From Symmachiella macrocystis (GTDB lineage Bacteria; Planctomycetota; Planctomycetia; Planctomycetales; Planctomycetaceae), in the NCBI RefSeq assembly GCF_007860075.1, contig NZ_SJPP01000001.1, positions 1,963,980 through 2,027,979 on the forward strand: DNA of 64,000 nucleotides, in the 5' to 3' direction. Positions 3,083 to 34,623 of the stretch are shown piece after piece. The notes beneath the pieces are model-generated. The model had not been told where the DNA came from and searched no databases. It was given only the letters and a program-made list of their open reading frames with translations. Position numbers and translations under genes: made by a program. Each line of letters opens with the position of its first letter. Within the stretch, counting starts at the first letter, position 1.

Positions 3083-5833
3083 ATGAGGCATTTTTTCGAG
3101 AGGCGTGGTCCCGGCGGGTTAGGGCTGGCCCTGTGGGTCGTGGTGGGCATGGCATTTATTGCTCCCATCGCTGTACTGGGTCTCCGCGACGTCGAACTGG
3201 AAAACAACGTCGGTGATTGGCTGGAGCCAAACAATCTGCAGGCCCGCAAGTTCCGCTGGCTGGAGAAGCAGTTCCCGCACGAAGACGCGGTCTTGGCGTC
3301 CTGGGATGACAGCCAGATTGGCGATCCCCGGCTGGAAGAATTCGCCGAGAAACTGCAAGGTAAGGCCGACTCCAACGGACGCCGACGAGGCGGGCTGCCG
3401 TTCATTTCAAAGGTCCGCACACCACTGGAATTGCTGGACCGGATGGAACAAAACGATGTGACGCGCGATGAGTCGCTGGAACGACTTTCGGGCGTGTTAA
3501 TCAGCGCCGGCAAACTGCGGCTGGTCCTGTCTGAAACCGGCAAGCACCGCGAAAAGGCGGCGCGCGCGAAAATCGCCGAGTGGTCGAAATCAAAGCTTGG
3601 TTTAGAAGTCGAAGTCCTGGACAAAATTCAGGACAAGCTGCTCACCGACAACGAAGACGCCACCGACGAAGAAAAACTGGACGAAGTGCTCGCTTCGGAG
3701 CACGATCTACGGGTGAGTTGGCCCGGCATGAAACCCGGTATACCAGCAACAATCGCCTTTCAGGATGCGATCCTCGACCTTCGATTCGAGGATACTGACG
3801 GGGATCAACCCACAGAACCGATCGTAGAGGATGCGTTCTTTTACCCGGGCGCGCCGGTGGCGGTCGTCATTTATATCAATGAAGCCGGGATGGCCGACAA
3901 AGGAGAGGCCATCCGTAGCATTCGTGCCGCCGCTGAGGAGGTCGGGATTGCCCCGGACACATTGCATCTTTCCGGCGGCGCCGTGGCAGCTTCGGCACTC
4001 AACCAGGCGGTGATCAAGTCGTCGTGGAACACGAATTTTCCGATGTGGATGTTACACCATCGCTCGGTGATGCTGCTCTCGGGTTTAGTTGGGCTGTTGC
4101 TCACGTTTTATATGATGCGCAGCTTTCGTTTGGGACTGATGGTCCTGGCCGTTTCGTATTTGACGCCCCTCGTCACCGTAGCCTTGGTCCCCGTAACAGG
4201 GGGGAGCATGAATATGGTGTTGATTGTGATGCCATCTTTACTGTTGATGCTGACGATTTCGGGCAGCATTCATGTCGGCAATTATTGGAAACATGCGGCG
4301 GCGCGCGATATGCGAACGGCTGTCGTGGAAGCCGTCGAAATGGCCCGCAAGCCATGCATGCTCGCTAGCTTCACAACGGTCATCGGGCTGTTGTCACTGG
4401 CGACCAGCCATCTTACGCCCGTGCGTGATTTTGGTTTGTACTCAGCGGCCGGCATGATCATTTCACTGGTCATGGTTTTATATGCCCTACCCTCGCTACT
4501 GCAATTGTGGCCGCCCAAACAGCCCAAGGTCGAAGAAACCGAGCATCTTTACTGGCGAAATTTGGCAAATTGGATCACAGAACATAGCACAATCGTGACC
4601 TGTGTTTTTCTTGTGGCATGCGTGGCGACAACTTCTGGCTTGGCTTACTTCCGCACCGAAACCAAGGTGATCAAGTATTTCCCGGAGACATCGCGGGTTT
4701 ATCAGGACTATGCGTTTTTAGAAAATAACCTCTCTGGGGTGGTGCCGGTCCAAATCGTTGCCAAATTTGCTGACGTGAAACGGGGCGGACCAAACTTCGC
4801 TGAGCGCGCCAAACTGGTGCGTGACTTACAGGCGAAAATCTCGCAATTGTCGGATGTCAGCGGAACCATGTCGTTGGCGGACTTTTTGCCAACACCCGAA
4901 CCATTACCCGAGGACGCCTCCCGATTAGCACGCCTGCGGGAACAAACCGCCGCGCGGGCCATGGAGACGCGTGTCAAAGAGGACAAAAACCACCAAGCGC
5001 AAGCCTTACTGGTCGTCGCTGAAGAGAAAACCGACTTTAGCGAACCAGGGGATGAGCTGTGGAAAATCACGGCGCAGGTCGCCGTGCTCACTGATGTGGA
5101 TTACGGCGATTTGATGGCCCAGATGGACCAGATCAGCGCCGAAGCATTACGGCTGGAGCCAACCGCGGGACATGTCGTCACCGGCATGGTGCCGCTGTTT
5201 TTAGAAACCCAACAAGAAGTTCTAAACAGCCTGATCACCAGTTTCGGGCTAGCGTTTGCAATGATCGGTTGCGTGTTGATGGTCGTGCTGCGGCATCCGC
5301 TGGCGGGATTTTTCGCCATGCTGCCGAATGTGCTGCCCATCGGTATGGTCTTCGGCATGATTTCGTGGTTTCGCATTCCGGTGGACATTGGCACCATGAT
5401 CACCGCTTCGGTGGCACTGGGGATCGCAGTCGATGGAACCGTGCACCTGCTGACGTGGTTCCGCACCGGTATTTTTGAAAATCTCACCCGCAAGCAATCC
5501 ATCGCACAAGCATTGGAGCATTGTGGACCGGCGATGTTTCAAACCAGCATTGTCACCAGTTTGGGACTGATTGTGTTGTACCCAGCGGAGTTGTTGTTGA
5601 TCAGTCGCTTCGGCTGGCTAATGGCGTCGCTGATCGGCATGGCGCTGGTCGCCGATGTGATATTGCTTCCCGCATTGTTGGCCGGGCCGCTAGGTACGTT
5701 CATCGAACGTCAAGTGCGCAAGTCGATGCCAACAATCGTTCGCGCCGAACCAGCGCCACCGGCAGCAAGCCCAGTCTCGCTGAAGCCGCACATCAGCCCC
5801 TCACGCGCCAGCATTTCACGGCAACGCGATTAA
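3083..5833 (+). CDS. RND/MMPL-family membrane transporter
   Basis: This 916-aa protein has the RND two-half layout. One membrane segment near the N-terminus (about 13-34) is followed by a large extracytoplasmic domain (about 35-320). A five- to six-helix bundle (about 325-490), a second segment (about 510-530), a second periplasmic loop (about 535-710) and a final helix bundle (about 715-890) complete it. The paired TM bundles with Gly-rich, Asp-containing helices (for example ITASVALGIAVDGTVHL) match MMPL/hopanoid-transporter-like exporters. Such proteins move lipids or other hydrophobic molecules using the proton gradient. No membrane-fusion protein or outer-membrane channel gene is adjacent, so it probably works alone. 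The substrate is unknown. Confidence 0.85.
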   Translation: MRHFFERRGPGGLGLALWVVVGMAFIAPIAVLGLRDVELENNVGDWLEPNNLQARKFRWLEKQFPHEDAVLASWDDSQIGDPRLEEFAEKLQGKADSNGRRRGGLPFISKVRTPLELLDRMEQNDVTRDESLERLSGVLISAGKLRLVLSETGKHREKAARAKIAEWSKSKLGLEVEVLDKIQDKLLTDNEDATDEEKLDEVLASEHDLRVSWPGMKPGIPATIAFQDAILDLRFEDTDGDQPTEPIVEDAFFYPGAPVAVVIYINEAGMADKGEAIRSIRAAAEEVGIAPDTLHLSGGAVAASALNQAVIKSSWNTNFPMWMLHHRSVMLLSGLVGLLLTFYMMRSFRLGLMVLAVSYLTPLVTVALVPVTGGSMNMVLIVMPSLLLMLTISGSIHVGNYWKHAAARDMRTAVVEAVEMARKPCMLASFTTVIGLLSLATSHLTPVRDFGLYSAAGMIISLVMVLYALPSLLQLWPPKQPKVEETEHLYWRNLANWITEHSTIVTCVFLVACVATTSGLAYFRTETKVIKYFPETSRVYQDYAFLENNLSGVVPVQIVAKFADVKRGGPNFAERAKLVRDLQAKISQLSDVSGTMSLADFLPTPEPLPEDASRLARLREQTAARAMETRVKEDKNHQAQALLVVAEEKTDFSEPGDELWKITAQVAVLTDVDYGDLMAQMDQISAEALRLEPTAGHVVTGMVPLFLETQQEVLNSLITSFGLAFAMIGCVLMVVLRHPLAGFFAMLPNVLPIGMVFGMISWFRIPVDIGTMITASVALGIAVDGTVHLLTWFRTGIFENLTRKQSIAQALEHCGPAMFQTSIVTSLGLIVLYPAELLLISRFGWLMASLIGMALVADVILLPALLAGPLGTFIERQVRKSMPTIVRAEPAPPAASPVSLKPHISPSRASISRQRD

Positions 5834-5915: not shown

Positions 5916-8900
5916 TTACGTAATGCGGTACTTCTTTAGCCGGCTGTAGTACGTGCTGCGGGGCATCCCCAACAGTCGTGCAGCGCGGGCTTTGTTTCCT
6001 CCACAACGCGACAAAGCATCGCGGAGTTGTTGTTCTTCGTTTGCGCCGTTGTCTCCCACTGCGGCAGGCACCGCGACGGGGACTTTCTCCGTTTCCCCAC
6101 CCGCGACCGGCTCTTGTCCGCCGGTGGTGTGCCGCCTTTGGCTGCCTAGTTGCAATTGTGATGGATTGGGGAACAAGATTTCCCGCGGCAGATCGCCGGG
6201 TGTGATCACCTCGTCATCGGCCAGCACAACCGCACGTTCGATCACATTTTCCAGCTCACGGATATTCCCCGGCCAGGGATACTGCTTGAGGATGTCGACC
6301 GTTTCGTCATCCAAGTGCGAAATCGGTTTACCGATGCGTTGTGCAGCGCGGCCCAAGAAATGTCGGGCCAATTCAAAAATGTCGTCGACACGATCACGCA
6401 ATGGCGGCAACGTCATGCTGATGACGTTCAACCGATAATACAGGTCCTCGCGAAAACGGCCTTGCAGGATCAGGCTTTCAAGGTCCTGGTGCGTCGCCGT
6501 CACCAGCCGTACATCGACCTGAATTGTCCGCGTCCCACCCACCGGCTCGAAGGAGCGTTCCTGCAGCACGCGCAACAATTTGACCTGTGTTTCCAAGGAG
6601 ATGTCGCCGATTTCATCCAGAAACAACGTGCCGCCATTGGCCATTTCAAAGCGGCCTTCTTTGTCCCGGTGTGCGCCGGTAAAAGCCCCTTTGGTGTGGC
6701 CGAACAGTTCGCTTTCCAGCAGGCTGGGGGAGAGCGCCGCACAATGCACGCGCACCATCGGCCCTTCGTGCCGCGGGCTGTTCATGTGCAATGTTTGGGC
6801 CAGTAACTCCTTGCCCGTTCCGCTCTCACCTCGAATGAGTACGGACGATTCGCTGTGCGAGACCTTTTGAACCGTGTCTAACAATTCGCGGATGGCCTTG
6901 CTGTTGCCGCGGATCAATTCGTTGCGGAAGCCACCTTGAATGGTGAGCTTCTGCGGATCGCGGCTTCCCATAATTTCCGATTGTAGAATCGAAATTTGCC
7001 GCTGTTGTTCGGCAACCCGCTCCGTTTTTAGTGAGAGTTCCTGGTTCAACCGCGTTATTTCATCGTGCACCTTAGAGCTGTGCAAAGTCATGATCTGCCC
7101 CAACGCGGTGAGGAAGGTCAGATCCTCAGCCGTGTAGGAGCTGTCGTCTCGTTTCCGCCCCAGCAACACGAACCCCGCCAATTCCCCTTCCATCTCCAGC
7201 CGATGAATCAGGTCGACATCCAATTCGCGCAGGATCGTCTGTACCTTAGACCGGGGGCCGCGTCCGCCGAGCGATGTTCGCTGCAAACTCGCGTTTTCTA
7301 AAAGCGGGATTGCGAGTTCTGGATCGTTTGCCAACCGCGCGGGAGGCGACATGTCGCCTTGGACGGCAATTAAGTTGAAGTCTTCGTTCGGCCCCGACCG
7401 CAAATAGATGGCGGCTTGGTTGATGTGCAGCACCTCTTGGCAGGAGGTCAACATCTGCTGACCCAGTGTCGCCGGGTCGCCGAGATGATCCCCCAGGTGG
7501 GCGACTGCCTGATTCATCCCCTGCATGACCTTGTCGAGTTGGTACTTTTCGCGATAAAAGCTGCGATCCAATGTCTGCTGCACACGATCACGAATCCACC
7601 CCAGCAGAATGACCGCCACCAACACAACCGGTGTGACCGAAATCACCTGATGCAAGAACTGCATGTCCTGCATCATGCCCAGCAGACTGCTGAGGGTGAT
7701 TGCCAAACTATAGACAATCAACACACCGAAGCTGAGCACGAAGTACAACGTGCCGCGGCTGAACACCTGGTCGACCAGCATCAGTTTGTAGCGGATGATC
7801 CCCACGGCATAGGCCATCATGAATAGCAAACTGGCAATGAACATCGGGAATCGCGCATGGCCCACAGCGAATTCGACCCGGTCATTAAGGGCTAACAGCA
7901 GCGTATAGCCAACGGGCAACGTCGATGCGGCTGCTGCCCACAAGATCCACTTCACCTGATCGTGTTCGGCGGTGTTCTTAGTCGTTTGGTAGCTGTCGTA
8001 CAGCGCGTATAACGTGGCGACAAAAAAGACAGTGGCGACGGCCAAGTATCCGTAGATCGATTTTTGGACGTAGGAAAGCGTGTATAGCAAGTCCCCTAAC
8101 GAGTATGCGTCGGTATGGGCGTGTTGCCAAGCCGAATAACACAACAGCGCCACCATGCCGGTCGTCGCAGCGAGAGGCAGCGCGTAGATCGATGCAAGAA
8201 TTGTCCGCGGATGGCGGGCAAACCAGGGTTTGCGGTGCGGAAAGACCAGGAAAAAGTGCAGAGTGACCACCGGCACCAGCATGGCGCAGATGGCAAAGGG
8301 AATGTTCAACCACAACCGCGCGGCGATCACCCACCAGTGATATCCACCGACAAATGCGACGACGGTGACGATGCACATCGCAAAGAACATTCGAGCCGCT
8401 GCATCGAACGGACGTTTCCAATACGCCATCGCCCCCACAACGAAGATTCCCAAGTGCAACGTGAACCACACCAGCGATAAACTCAACGCCCCAAGCGGCA
8501 ATCGTTTTTCTTGGAGAAATGGAGAATACGGGTCACTGGGGTCGCCATCCTCTTTGAAGAACTCGACTTCAATCCAGCGTTCATGCGAGGGTAGTTTCTC
8601 GACGATCGGCCCGGCGTGCTCTTCGGAGTCACTGGTCTGGGGCACGAACGACCCCACTGGGGTTGGCGTCGAACGTAAATTGGCGATTGCTTGTGTGAAC
8701 TCAGTAAAGGTCCGCACGGGTTGCCCACCAATACTCAATAATCGGCTCCCCTCTTGCGGACGGTCTCCATCGGTGGTCACGTCGAAGACGCGGTCGATGC
8801 GGACACCGACCTCATTCTCGGGGTGAACACCAGCTGCGACCAAGTCCTCTTCGTTGGGCATCAGACAGCGCAGCCCGAGATCGCGACTTTGGCTGACAAA

Positions 8901-8993
8901 ACCAAGGACGATAATCGAGTAGACCAGTACGGCGATCCCGGCAAGGACCAGAGGCCATCGTCGCGCCGGTTTCAGCCCGTCATATCTCGCCAT
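5916..8993 (-). CDS. Membrane-bound sigma-54 activator (PDZ-like, 7TM, GAF, AAA+, Fis HTH)
   Basis: This 1025-aa protein begins with a TM helix (about 15-33), then a PDZ-like extracytoplasmic segment (about 45-105), a multi-helix membrane block (about 165-460), a GAF-like domain (about 490-640) and a coiled coil (about 650-690). The AAA+ domain follows: Walker A GESGTGKE at 722, the sigma-54-contacting GAFTGA loop at about 769-774, and LFLDEIGD as Walker B. A Fis-type HTH lies at about 985-1025. It should sense a membrane or small-molecule signal and activate RpoN promoters. I chose the ATG at 8993 because GGATAGG lies just upstream; the longer frame from 9083 has no ribosome site. It diverges from a perfect sigma-54 promoter at 9291, a likely target. 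Confidence 0.9.
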   Translation of the reverse strand: MARYDGLKPARRWPLVLAGIAVLVYSIIVLGFVSQSRDLGLRCLMPNEEDLVAAGVHPENEVGVRIDRVFDVTTDGDRPQEGSRLLSIGGQPVRTFTEFTQAIANLRSTPTPVGSFVPQTSDSEEHAGPIVEKLPSHERWIEVEFFKEDGDPSDPYSPFLQEKRLPLGALSLSLVWFTLHLGIFVVGAMAYWKRPFDAAARMFFAMCIVTVVAFVGGYHWWVIAARLWLNIPFAICAMLVPVVTLHFFLVFPHRKPWFARHPRTILASIYALPLAATTGMVALLCYSAWQHAHTDAYSLGDLLYTLSYVQKSIYGYLAVATVFFVATLYALYDSYQTTKNTAEHDQVKWILWAAAASTLPVGYTLLLALNDRVEFAVGHARFPMFIASLLFMMAYAVGIIRYKLMLVDQVFSRGTLYFVLSFGVLIVYSLAITLSSLLGMMQDMQFLHQVISVTPVVLVAVILLGWIRDRVQQTLDRSFYREKYQLDKVMQGMNQAVAHLGDHLGDPATLGQQMLTSCQEVLHINQAAIYLRSGPNEDFNLIAVQGDMSPPARLANDPELAIPLLENASLQRTSLGGRGPRSKVQTILRELDVDLIHRLEMEGELAGFVLLGRKRDDSSYTAEDLTFLTALGQIMTLHSSKVHDEITRLNQELSLKTERVAEQQRQISILQSEIMGSRDPQKLTIQGGFRNELIRGNSKAIRELLDTVQKVSHSESSVLIRGESGTGKELLAQTLHMNSPRHEGPMVRVHCAALSPSLLESELFGHTKGAFTGAHRDKEGRFEMANGGTLFLDEIGDISLETQVKLLRVLQERSFEPVGGTRTIQVDVRLVTATHQDLESLILQGRFREDLYYRLNVISMTLPPLRDRVDDIFELARHFLGRAAQRIGKPISHLDDETVDILKQYPWPGNIRELENVIERAVVLADDEVITPGDLPREILFPNPSQLQLGSQRRHTTGGQEPVAGGETEKVPVAVPAAVGDNGANEEQQLRDALSRCGGNKARAARLLGMPRSTYYSRLKKYRIT

Positions 8994-9290
8994 TTTACCT
9001 ATCCAGAGCGCCGAATAGCGCCGAAAAAAGGTGTCGAACACCCGTGGACATCGGCGCCGAAGCGAGCGCCGAACCAATGACACTATTATTACCCGAATGG
9101 TGGGGCAAATTCAAACGTATCTTGAATCTGGAGTCGTACACATGGAACCGAAGAGATCTAACTCCATTGAAAACAAGCAGATACAAACTATGAACCGGCT
9201 TTGAGTTTTCAGCGCCCAGATCGCAATTCCAGCGAGGTTTTGAACAATTTCGCCAAAAACAAAACGTCATGCTGGTGACGAACGGGTGTT

Positions 9291-9306
9291 TGGCACGCAC
9301 GTTGCA
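9291..9306 (+). promoter_or_regulatory. Sigma-54 (-24/-12) promoter with no ordinary downstream gene
   Basis: TGGCACGCACGTTGCA matches the RpoN consensus TGGCACG-N4-TTGCW at every conserved position with correct GG-to-GC spacing, and is preceded by T-rich sequence. The predicted start is near 9317. It points away from the sigma-54 activator gene, whose start is about 300 bp to the left. The next gene downstream, queD, is on the opposite strand. No clear activator-binding dyad was identified by eye upstream. Confidence 0.8.
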
Positions 9307-9350
9307 TATTAGAAATCACAGTTACGGAAGTTTAAACAAGATATTTCAGC

Positions 9351-9416
9351 ATGGCCTCTTGTACCAAACCAATCAAGAAGCCCTCTGCTCACGATACCCA
9401 GCCTAGCCCCTTGTGA
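9351..9416 (+). CDS. Possible 21-aa micropeptide in the sigma-54 transcript
   Basis: An ATG about 34 nt from the predicted transcript start opens 21 codons ending in TGA. The peptide begins MASCTKPIKK, has one Cys, and ends in a Pro/Ser-rich PSPL tail. No Shine-Dalgarno site sits at a normal distance; GGAAG is about 21 nt upstream. It may be chance. Confidence 0.2.
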   Translation: MASCTKPIKKPSAHDTQPSPL

Positions 9417-9514
9417 AAGCGTGGATTAGAGACAAAACTTGGTATGCAATAGGGTCCCCTAAGTCGCAACCGACCCACACCGCGATTTAGCCTACCGCCT
9501 GAGAATACTCAACC

Positions 9515-9550
9515 AAGCCCTTTGTCTTTCCGCTTTCCAGGGGCTTTCTT
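9515..9550 (+). terminator. Weak terminator-like hairpin after the sigma-54 transcript
   Basis: AAGCCC (9515-9520) pairs with GGGCTT (9541-9546) across a 20-nt pyrimidine-rich loop, followed by TCTTTA. The stem is short and the loop long, so termination is only suggested. Confidence 0.35.
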
Positions 9551-9635
9551 TATGCGCTGATGGAATCTCACCGTGCGCGCAATCCGCCCCTGGCGACAAT
9601 CGCTTGTGCGAGGGATCCCAGAGGCCTCCCCTCGC

Positions 9636-10055
9636 TCAATGACTAGGACTCGACCATTCGCCGTAGGTGGCTGACGATTTGGGAGTCTCCCACAAGGTGA
9701 CTTCTCGGACCGGTAGTTTTTCGGAATTCGCGAATTCGTAGATCAGCCGCGCGATATTCTCTGCTGTCGGATTGTAGGAAATCACGTAGACCGGTTCGTT
9801 CAATTCCAGGAGCATGGAGAGTGCCGGGTCATCCTCATGCAGTATCATGCGGTGGTCCAGCTCCGAATCGATCCAGGTGGCGATGGACTTTTTGATGTCC
9901 GTGAAGTCGATCAACATCCCTCGATTGTCCAGTTCGGCTGCCTCCAGGGAAATCTGCACCCGTCCATTATGGCCATGGAGGTTACGGCATTTGCCGGCAT
10001 AATTCAGCAGACGGTGGCCATAACAAAAATCGATTTGTTGGGTGATTCGATACAT
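9636..10055 (-). CDS. queD: 6-carboxy-tetrahydropterin synthase / QueD family
   Basis: This 139-aa tunnel-fold enzyme carries the zinc and catalytic signature: an early His in the YGHRL segment, then C-R-N-L-H-G-H-N (CxxxHGH), and the DHRMIL block. The family converts dihydroneopterin triphosphate to 6-carboxy-tetrahydropterin for queuosine, or to 6-pyruvoyl-tetrahydropterin. A tgt gene at 50288 in the same window favours the queuosine role. I chose the ATG at 10055; the frame runs seven codons further to a TTG, but the family normally begins close to this Met. The gene stands alone, and 138 bp downstream of nothing else on its strand. Confidence 0.85.
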   Translation of the reverse strand: MYRITQQIDFCYGHRLLNYAGKCRNLHGHNGRVQISLEAAELDNRGMLIDFTDIKKSIATWIDSELDHRMILHEDDPALSMLLELNEPVYVISYNPTAENIARLIYEFANSEKLPVREVTLWETPKSSATYGEWSSPSH

Positions 10056-32027: not shown

Positions 32028-32195
32028 GTGAGCGCAATCACTTTCCTGGCAAAGGATTGCAAGCAAACCGCACAGGAAGCCTTTCGGTTAGGCACGGAAG
32101 TTGCAATTCGTTCAAGCCGGCTAGTTGTGGCCACTGCGGGAGTCTCGTATTCGAACGACGTTGTCGTTTCTGAGGCCATACATCATGGCGATTGA
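32028..32195 (+). CDS. Possible 55-aa small protein
   Basis: A GTG with GAGA eight bases upstream, and a TATTAT -10-like box before that, opens 55 codons with protein-like composition (for example TAQEAFRLGTEVAIRSSRLV). No family is recognised, and the opposite strand is also open here, so this is only a candidate. The remaining 31854-32407 spacer holds nothing else convincing. Confidence 0.25.
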   Translation: MSAITFLAKDCKQTAQEAFRLGTEVAIRSSRLVVATAGVSYSNDVVVSEAIHHGD

Positions 32196-34607: not shown

Positions 34608-34623
34608 TGGCACGCTGGTTGCA
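34608..34623 (+). promoter_or_regulatory. Sigma-54 promoter upstream of glnA
   Basis: TGGCACGCTGGTTGCA is a perfect RpoN match with correct spacing. The predicted start is near 34634, leaving a leader of about 340 nt to glnA. A palindrome CGAAACG-TCCC-CGTTTCG lies at 34574-34591, 17 bp before the -24 element, and could be a regulator site or an upstream structure. Confidence 0.85.

Follow-up and report, generated by a model that had tools for sequence, protein, structure and literature searches.

A probable gene for a conserved, folded non-coding RNA divergent from a sigma-54 membrane activator in a planctomycete family

In the window, by which we mean the whole 64-kb stretch of DNA analysed here, the gene-free stretch behind a sigma-54 promoter is, judging from sequence comparison, very probably the gene for a conserved, folded non-coding RNA, and this RNA is apparently switched on by the membrane regulator encoded beside it. 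It is likely that the two genes make up a unit in which a sigma-54 activator, working on repeats in the spacer, switches on a divergent, stand-alone non-coding RNA that acts in trans. The unit is family-wide and not peculiar to the window's genome. Activator and RNA were both found in 104 genomes and share a contig in 96 of them; all 96 pairs are divergent, with the two members 149-628 nt apart (median 280). Among the remaining eight genomes, six have the activator or the RNA less than 500 nt from a contig start, one (G068) is unplaced, and one (G022) carries the RNA elsewhere.

The activator, a protein of 1025 aa, is encoded at 5916-8993 on the minus strand. As the sequence-only reading had held, it is a GAFTGA-containing membrane activator: GAFTGA stands at residue 769 in the AAA+ domain, a Fis-type HTH is present, and nine hydrophobic segments lie between residues 11 and 462. 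With the Pfam domains Sigma54_activat (7.7e-71), AAA_lid_14 and HTH_8, the protein has the domain make-up of bacterial enhancer-binding proteins, in which a GAFTGA-bearing AAA+ domain contacts sigma-54 and an HTH binds DNA. An AlphaFold prediction for the N-terminal 690 residues, made from two sequences, was unusable (pLDDT 39). An orthologue is found in 114 of 120 family genomes (E<=1e-100), and a scan of genome contigs with the activator as query gave one full-length relative, the remaining matches covering mainly the C-terminal AAA+/HTH part. The next gene after the RNA is a convergent QueD/PTPS homologue with its stop at 9636; no ORF of at least 60 aa is listed on the plus strand between activator and queD, in agreement with the earlier claim that no normal gene follows downstream on the promoter's strand.

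The -24/-12 element TGGCACGCACGTTGCA occupies 9291-9306 on the plus strand and reads TGGCACG-CACG-TTGCA. Its distance to the ATG of the minus-strand activator is 298 bp, and it faces away from that gene, which confirms the description of a perfect TGGCACG-N4-TTGCA promoter about 300 bp off the activator and pointing away. This pattern occurs twice in the 64-kb window, against 0.01 occurrences expected. Loss of the -24/-12 bases in close relatives had been named beforehand as a refuting result; the element is kept in both congeners, one of which (G002) has the version CGGCACG-GCAA-TTGCA, with T changed to C at the first base, and the GG-N10-GC signature of sigma-54 promoters is present at 9291-9306 and conserved in relatives. 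Of the 90 family loci, 89 were long enough for the region upstream of the activator to be scored; on the divergent strand the best -24/-12 score is at least 14/16 in 75 of these 89, compared with 1/89 on the reverse strand and 23/890 in first-order Markov shuffles; a promoter-like site (score at least 13) lies within 170 nt upstream of 79 of the 80 aligned RNAs. A sigma-54 factor is present in 28 of 30 genomes and an RpoN gene in the window's own genome; transcription from 9291-9306 would be expected to depend on RpoN. Studholme and Dixon reportedly analysed the activators of Pirellula sp. strain 1 in silico in 2004, and this promoter may already be mentioned there.

Ammonium transporters and glutamine synthetase are classical nitrogen targets of sigma-54. 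Two more GGCACG-N4-TTGCA sites occur in the window: an ammonium transporter ORF (32387) has one about 280 bp upstream (32091-32105), and a glutamine synthetase ORF (34975) has the other about 350 bp upstream (34608-34623). These two predicted sites constitute a nitrogen sigma-54 cluster within the same window and provide a yardstick for the site at 9291.

The spacer between the two genes contains a palindromic repeat with the consensus TCRGCGCYGA. In the window a putative activator-binding cluster spans 9008-9072 (either strand), with GCGCCGA at 9008, 9018, 9054 and 9066 and TCGGCGC at 9051, and a further half-site, TCAGCGC, lies at 9209-9215. Of the 90 loci analysed, one had no promoter candidate at the threshold and four had no rod, which leaves 85. 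GCGCCGAA is present in 83 of 85 spacers, as compared with at most 12/85 for the commonest 8-mer of each of five shuffles. Half-site matches average 5.8 per locus. From their position, we presume these repeats to be the site bound by the activator. The displaced RNA of G022 lies away from the activator, yet retains several repeats and a TGGTACG-ATGA-ATGCG promoter upstream, suggesting that the repeats belong to the promoter of the RNA. This RNA is found at L216:1612-1772 on the minus strand, beside a 146-aa ORF that, by reading only, resembles a Fur-type regulator.

Repeat pairs were also counted genome-wide in a search for further activator targets. The counts, which include the RNA locus itself, exceed those of the control pattern in some genomes and not in others: pattern and control gave 32/26 in G000, 34/19 in G001, 67/37 in G002, 8/6 in G118, 85/49 in G003, 8/9 in G034, 11/0 in G020 and 27/60 in G063. 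With such mixed counts, the activator may have additional targets besides the RNA.

On the plus strand, promoter spacing predicts a transcript that starts at 9317 with a leader of variable length (9317-9395) followed by a conserved core at 9396-9557. The core opens with the unpaired ACCCAGCC (9396-9403), whose conserved part, CCCAGCC, is kept at 82-100% per position in 80 sequences, the first letter varying. Then comes a rod at 9405-9545, in which we distinguish P1 (9405-9421/9531-9545), P2 (9431-9443/9512-9526) and P3 (9459-9467/9482-9490); the apical loop of P3 (9468-9481) carries GACCCAC at 9472-9478, of which ACCCA is conserved at 90-94% per position. Sequence and the alignment of relatives place a U tail, TTCTTT, with ATGCGC behind it at 9546-9557. 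Since the closing helix P1 is directly followed by TTCTTT, it probably doubles as the terminator. The "weak terminator" of the sequence-only reading thus stands in so far as it corresponds to this closing helix of a long rod, although a simple terminator scan does not list it. In relatives, ATGCGC or TGCGC often follows the U tail (9552-9557 in the window); TTTNTGCGC is not enriched within the window (3 found, 5.3 expected).

The same order of elements after the promoter, namely an unpaired CCCAGCC, a rod, a U-rich tail and often GCGC, is found at most family loci. The predicted RNA is about 235 nt long in the window and 116-287 nt in 76 relatives, a set obtained by setting aside by eye nine badly delimited loci of the 85 and used for leader lengths, C content, frames and structures. 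In these 76 RNAs the distance from the predicted start to CCCAGCC ranges from about 0 to 139 nt, and in 20 of them it is 2-5 nt. The conserved block has a folding z-score of -3.7 on the plus strand, where it forms the long rod, versus -1.5 on the minus strand, and an RNA on the opposite strand was rejected on these values. The median folding z-score of the 76 RNAs is -5.2, a value that is biased because the RNA ends were chosen so as to include the closing stem. Unpaired regions are only slightly richer in C than in shuffles (0.413 vs 0.372), and we therefore do not use their C-richness as an argument.

A search of 59 genomes with the DNA returned the genome itself and its two congeners; in G002, 173 nt downstream of the promoter are 87% identical, and the activator protein is 72% identical. 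The family was studied through the regions upstream of orthologous activators (n=90, 30 loci and 60 further stretches). Because a MAFFT alignment of the 76 RNAs lost most of the structure, a covariance model was built from eight sequences and then iterated. The first model, R1, was made from eight relatives (alignment A2) with the window sequence left out. It finds the RNA upstream of the activator in 81 of 90 loci (E<=0.004), 73 of which are outside the eight training sequences, and it matches the untrained window locus with E = 4.7e-8. An alignment of spacers in relatives had been proposed as a check for covariation, and it came out in favour of a structured RNA: in an 80-row alignment, two-sided changes occur in all 18 modelled pairs (P1 and P3 only), with a covariation score of 0.525 compared with a shuffled mean of 0.211 (none of 500 shuffles scored as high) and 0.024-0.122 for slid partners. 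As this alignment was fitted to the model it leans towards it, and the recovery by R1 of untrained loci in the right place is more independent support. P1 and P3 are backed by covariation, and P2 by single-sequence folding only. In each of the 80 aligned rows the RNA is upstream of the activator and divergent from it; this figure is no hit rate, as the list was reduced from 90 to 80 loci after the R1 result; antisense echoes of three loci (R1, E 0.016-0.13) were left out.

A refined model, R2, run with strict filters and scoring 17 candidates per genome, gave one match each in 143 of 170 family genomes, representing 54 of 58 genera (E<=0.01). With the filters off, six more family loci were recovered (E<=1.4e-6), as were two in other families of the class, G205 (E 5e-4) and G252 (E 0.002), both divergent from the activator. 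A scan of 198 genomes of the class yielded 49 matches. Of these, 47 fall in the family; the two outside it, in G214 and G237 (79 and 52 nt; E 0.009 and 0.003), were taken for chance. Seven of the nine loci set aside by eye were later matched by the models (E<=0.01) on or next to the activator's place on the contig, and G022, also one of the nine, was matched elsewhere. In G084 and G009 a promoter-like site is followed by a rod, without a significant match (E 0.19 in one; none at that place in the other). G123 has its main match and also a second, truncated one next to the activator, where a contig starts. In G033, two tandem copies of the RNA lie behind one promoter region (L017:3583-3717 and 3718-3875), the first of them weak (E 0.06).

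The sequence-only reading had left two products in play, a small RNA or a micropeptide. Conservation, covariation, promoter, repeats and terminator argue strongly for the small RNA. A micropeptide would be encoded by the 21-codon frame at 9351-9416, most of which lies in the leader. This frame is present in the window and in the congener G001, and an ATG frame of at least 15 codons occurs in 20 of the 76 RNAs. However, the check on conservation of the frame went against it: the predicted transcript of G002 lacks any closed ATG frame, and the stretch of leader where the 21-codon frame starts is missing from its alignment; a closed ATG frame is absent in 32 of the 76 family RNAs, and no frame is kept across the family. 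Leaders of the 2-5 nt found in 20 RNAs before the conserved core also speak against a micropeptide, as does the nature of the conserved block itself, which is a covarying helix. A micropeptide as the family-wide function is refuted, and even for the transcript in the window we regard it as extremely unlikely. Another reading would make the transcript an untranslated leader, or an attenuator, that belongs to a downstream gene, or else an antisense RNA to queD, which indeed lies convergent behind the RNA in 14 of 84 family loci, the window included. This is very unlikely, given that the RNA's U tail (9551) comes before the stop of queD (9636) and that, of the 50 loci with a conserved downstream ORF, 19 have the nearest one on the RNA's strand and 31 on the opposite strand. 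The neighbour behind the RNA varies in both identity and strand, so that the RNA does not serve as the leader of any one gene.

Single copy, rod shape and similar length are traits shared with 6S RNA (RF00013). That the locus is this lineage's 6S RNA, or another known Rfam family, nevertheless has next to no probability: the same genome has a separate 6S match that scores above the cut-off (G000:C3:546752-546950), there is no 6S match at the locus, and no Rfam family reaches its gathering score here, the best permissive match being CbSR4 with 10.9 bits against a cut-off of 243. Sponge RNAs of the CsrB/RsmZ type have multiple GGA motifs in their loops. All 30 genomes examined have CsrA, yet an unpaired GGA occurs in only one of the 76 predicted structures, and a CsrA sponge was rejected. 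The CsrA family itself is of unusual multiplicity, with ten hits in G000, the window's genome, and 2 to 16 in each of 30 relatives. A more general decoy, in which the RNA would use its two CCCA elements to titrate an RNA-binding protein and not to pair with mRNAs, is conceivable but doubtful. The two most conserved unpaired elements, the 5' CCCAGCC and the ACCCA of the P3 loop, share CCCA and stand at fixed places. In 61 genomes, hits to the 11-nt complement of the common loop number 130, fewer than the 377 of the reversed control; this lack of enrichment makes long pairing to a conserved target unlikely and would suit a decoy. Against it, there is no candidate protein: besides the scarcity of unpaired GGA for CsrA, Hfq (PF17209) was not found in any of 30 genomes, with control genomes positive. 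The RNA likewise falls outside the Hfq-dependent trans-acting sRNAs of the Qrr and GlmZ type, for which Hfq would have to be present in the organism.

With these alternatives weighed, one may outline how the activator-RNA unit would work. The N-terminal hydrophobic half of the activator may sense a signal or state; the protein would then bind the TCRGCGCYGA repeats in the shared spacer and make sigma-54 polymerase open the divergent -24/-12 promoter. The product would be a stand-alone non-coding RNA ending in its own terminator. Most likely this RNA acts in trans, and the 5' CCCAGCC and the ACCCA of the apical loop might be offered to short G-rich sites in mRNAs or to an RNA-binding protein, no Hfq having been found.

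A sigma-54 activator beside a small RNA gene is a known arrangement. In vibrios, the sigma-54 activator gene luxO adjoins qrr1, and the Qrr RNAs are Hfq-dependent and several per genome. The likeness to LuxO-Qrr lies in the small RNA gene beside the activator; the RNA described here, in contrast, has one match per genome, another structure and another activator architecture. In pseudomonads CrcZ titrates Hfq/Crc. According to an outline of the CbrAB-CrcZ system, the sigma-54 activator CbrB of Pseudomonadaceae switches on the adjacent small RNA CrcZ (PMC8871633), an arrangement of activator and adjacent RNA whose order is, as here, conserved in one bacterial family. As there outlined, CrcZ lies downstream of cbrB, CbrB is a response regulator with a separate kinase, and CrcZ binds the Crc/Hfq complex (PMC8871633), whereas the RNA of the window is divergent from a one-component membrane activator and Hfq was not found; the two RNAs were compared in sequence through Rfam only. 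Rhodopirellula-1 is listed as a candidate planctomycete RNA motif, without an Rfam accession in the table; its status as an RNA is given there as ambiguous, its role as probably cis-regulatory, and it also occurs in Proteobacteria (PMC2864571). Our RNA stands alone and so differs from Rhodopirellula-1 as described (PMC2864571), though the two might yet be one motif. Set against these known systems, the RNA is a different one, the membrane activator has one component, no Hfq was found, and other families have a hydrolase gene at the same place. In the open-access literature we did not find this RNA described, and few regulatory small RNAs are described there for planctomycetes. Present almost throughout one family, and with the activator gene, the promoter, the putative binding sites and the terminator all mapped, the RNA gives direct, testable access to RNA regulation in this group.

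Full-length or nearly full-length relatives of the activator also occur in other families of the class. Twenty upstream regions from these families were inspected, and two contain the RNA. In 17 of the 18 RNA-less loci (L191-L207; the exception is G254) an alpha/beta-hydrolase-like ORF is divergent from the activator. Seven of these 17 ORFs supplied the queries, and the other ten match at E<=1.6e-40. Within the stretches covered, no such ORF was found in any of the 90 family loci, nor in the window. A profile of six hydrolases scores 4e-74 or better in 10 of 22 genomes outside the family and stays at 4e-32 or worse in 37 genomes of the window's family, so that a true orthologue seems to be missing there. 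The presence of the hydrolase at the same place in other families suggests that the RNA replaced a protein output. The simplest reading, in which direction and orthology would both have to hold, is that an activator-hydrolase unit became an activator-RNA unit. We find it rather plausible, if far from assured, that output was exchanged under one regulatory device: the hydrolase is divergent from the activator in other families, and the same activator, promoter type and kind of repeat would drive a gene-controlling small RNA in the window's family, as well as in two genomes that belong to two further families, with no Hfq found. If this exchange is true, it represents a regulator that changed its output from protein to RNA, an event that could be dated on a tree. 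All three of the hydrolase ORFs scanned are Abhydrolase_1 (Pfam); promoter-like GG-N10-GC sites precede many of the hydrolase ORFs, and at least two repeat half-sites occur in 11 of the 18 RNA-less loci, as a raw count without a chance level.
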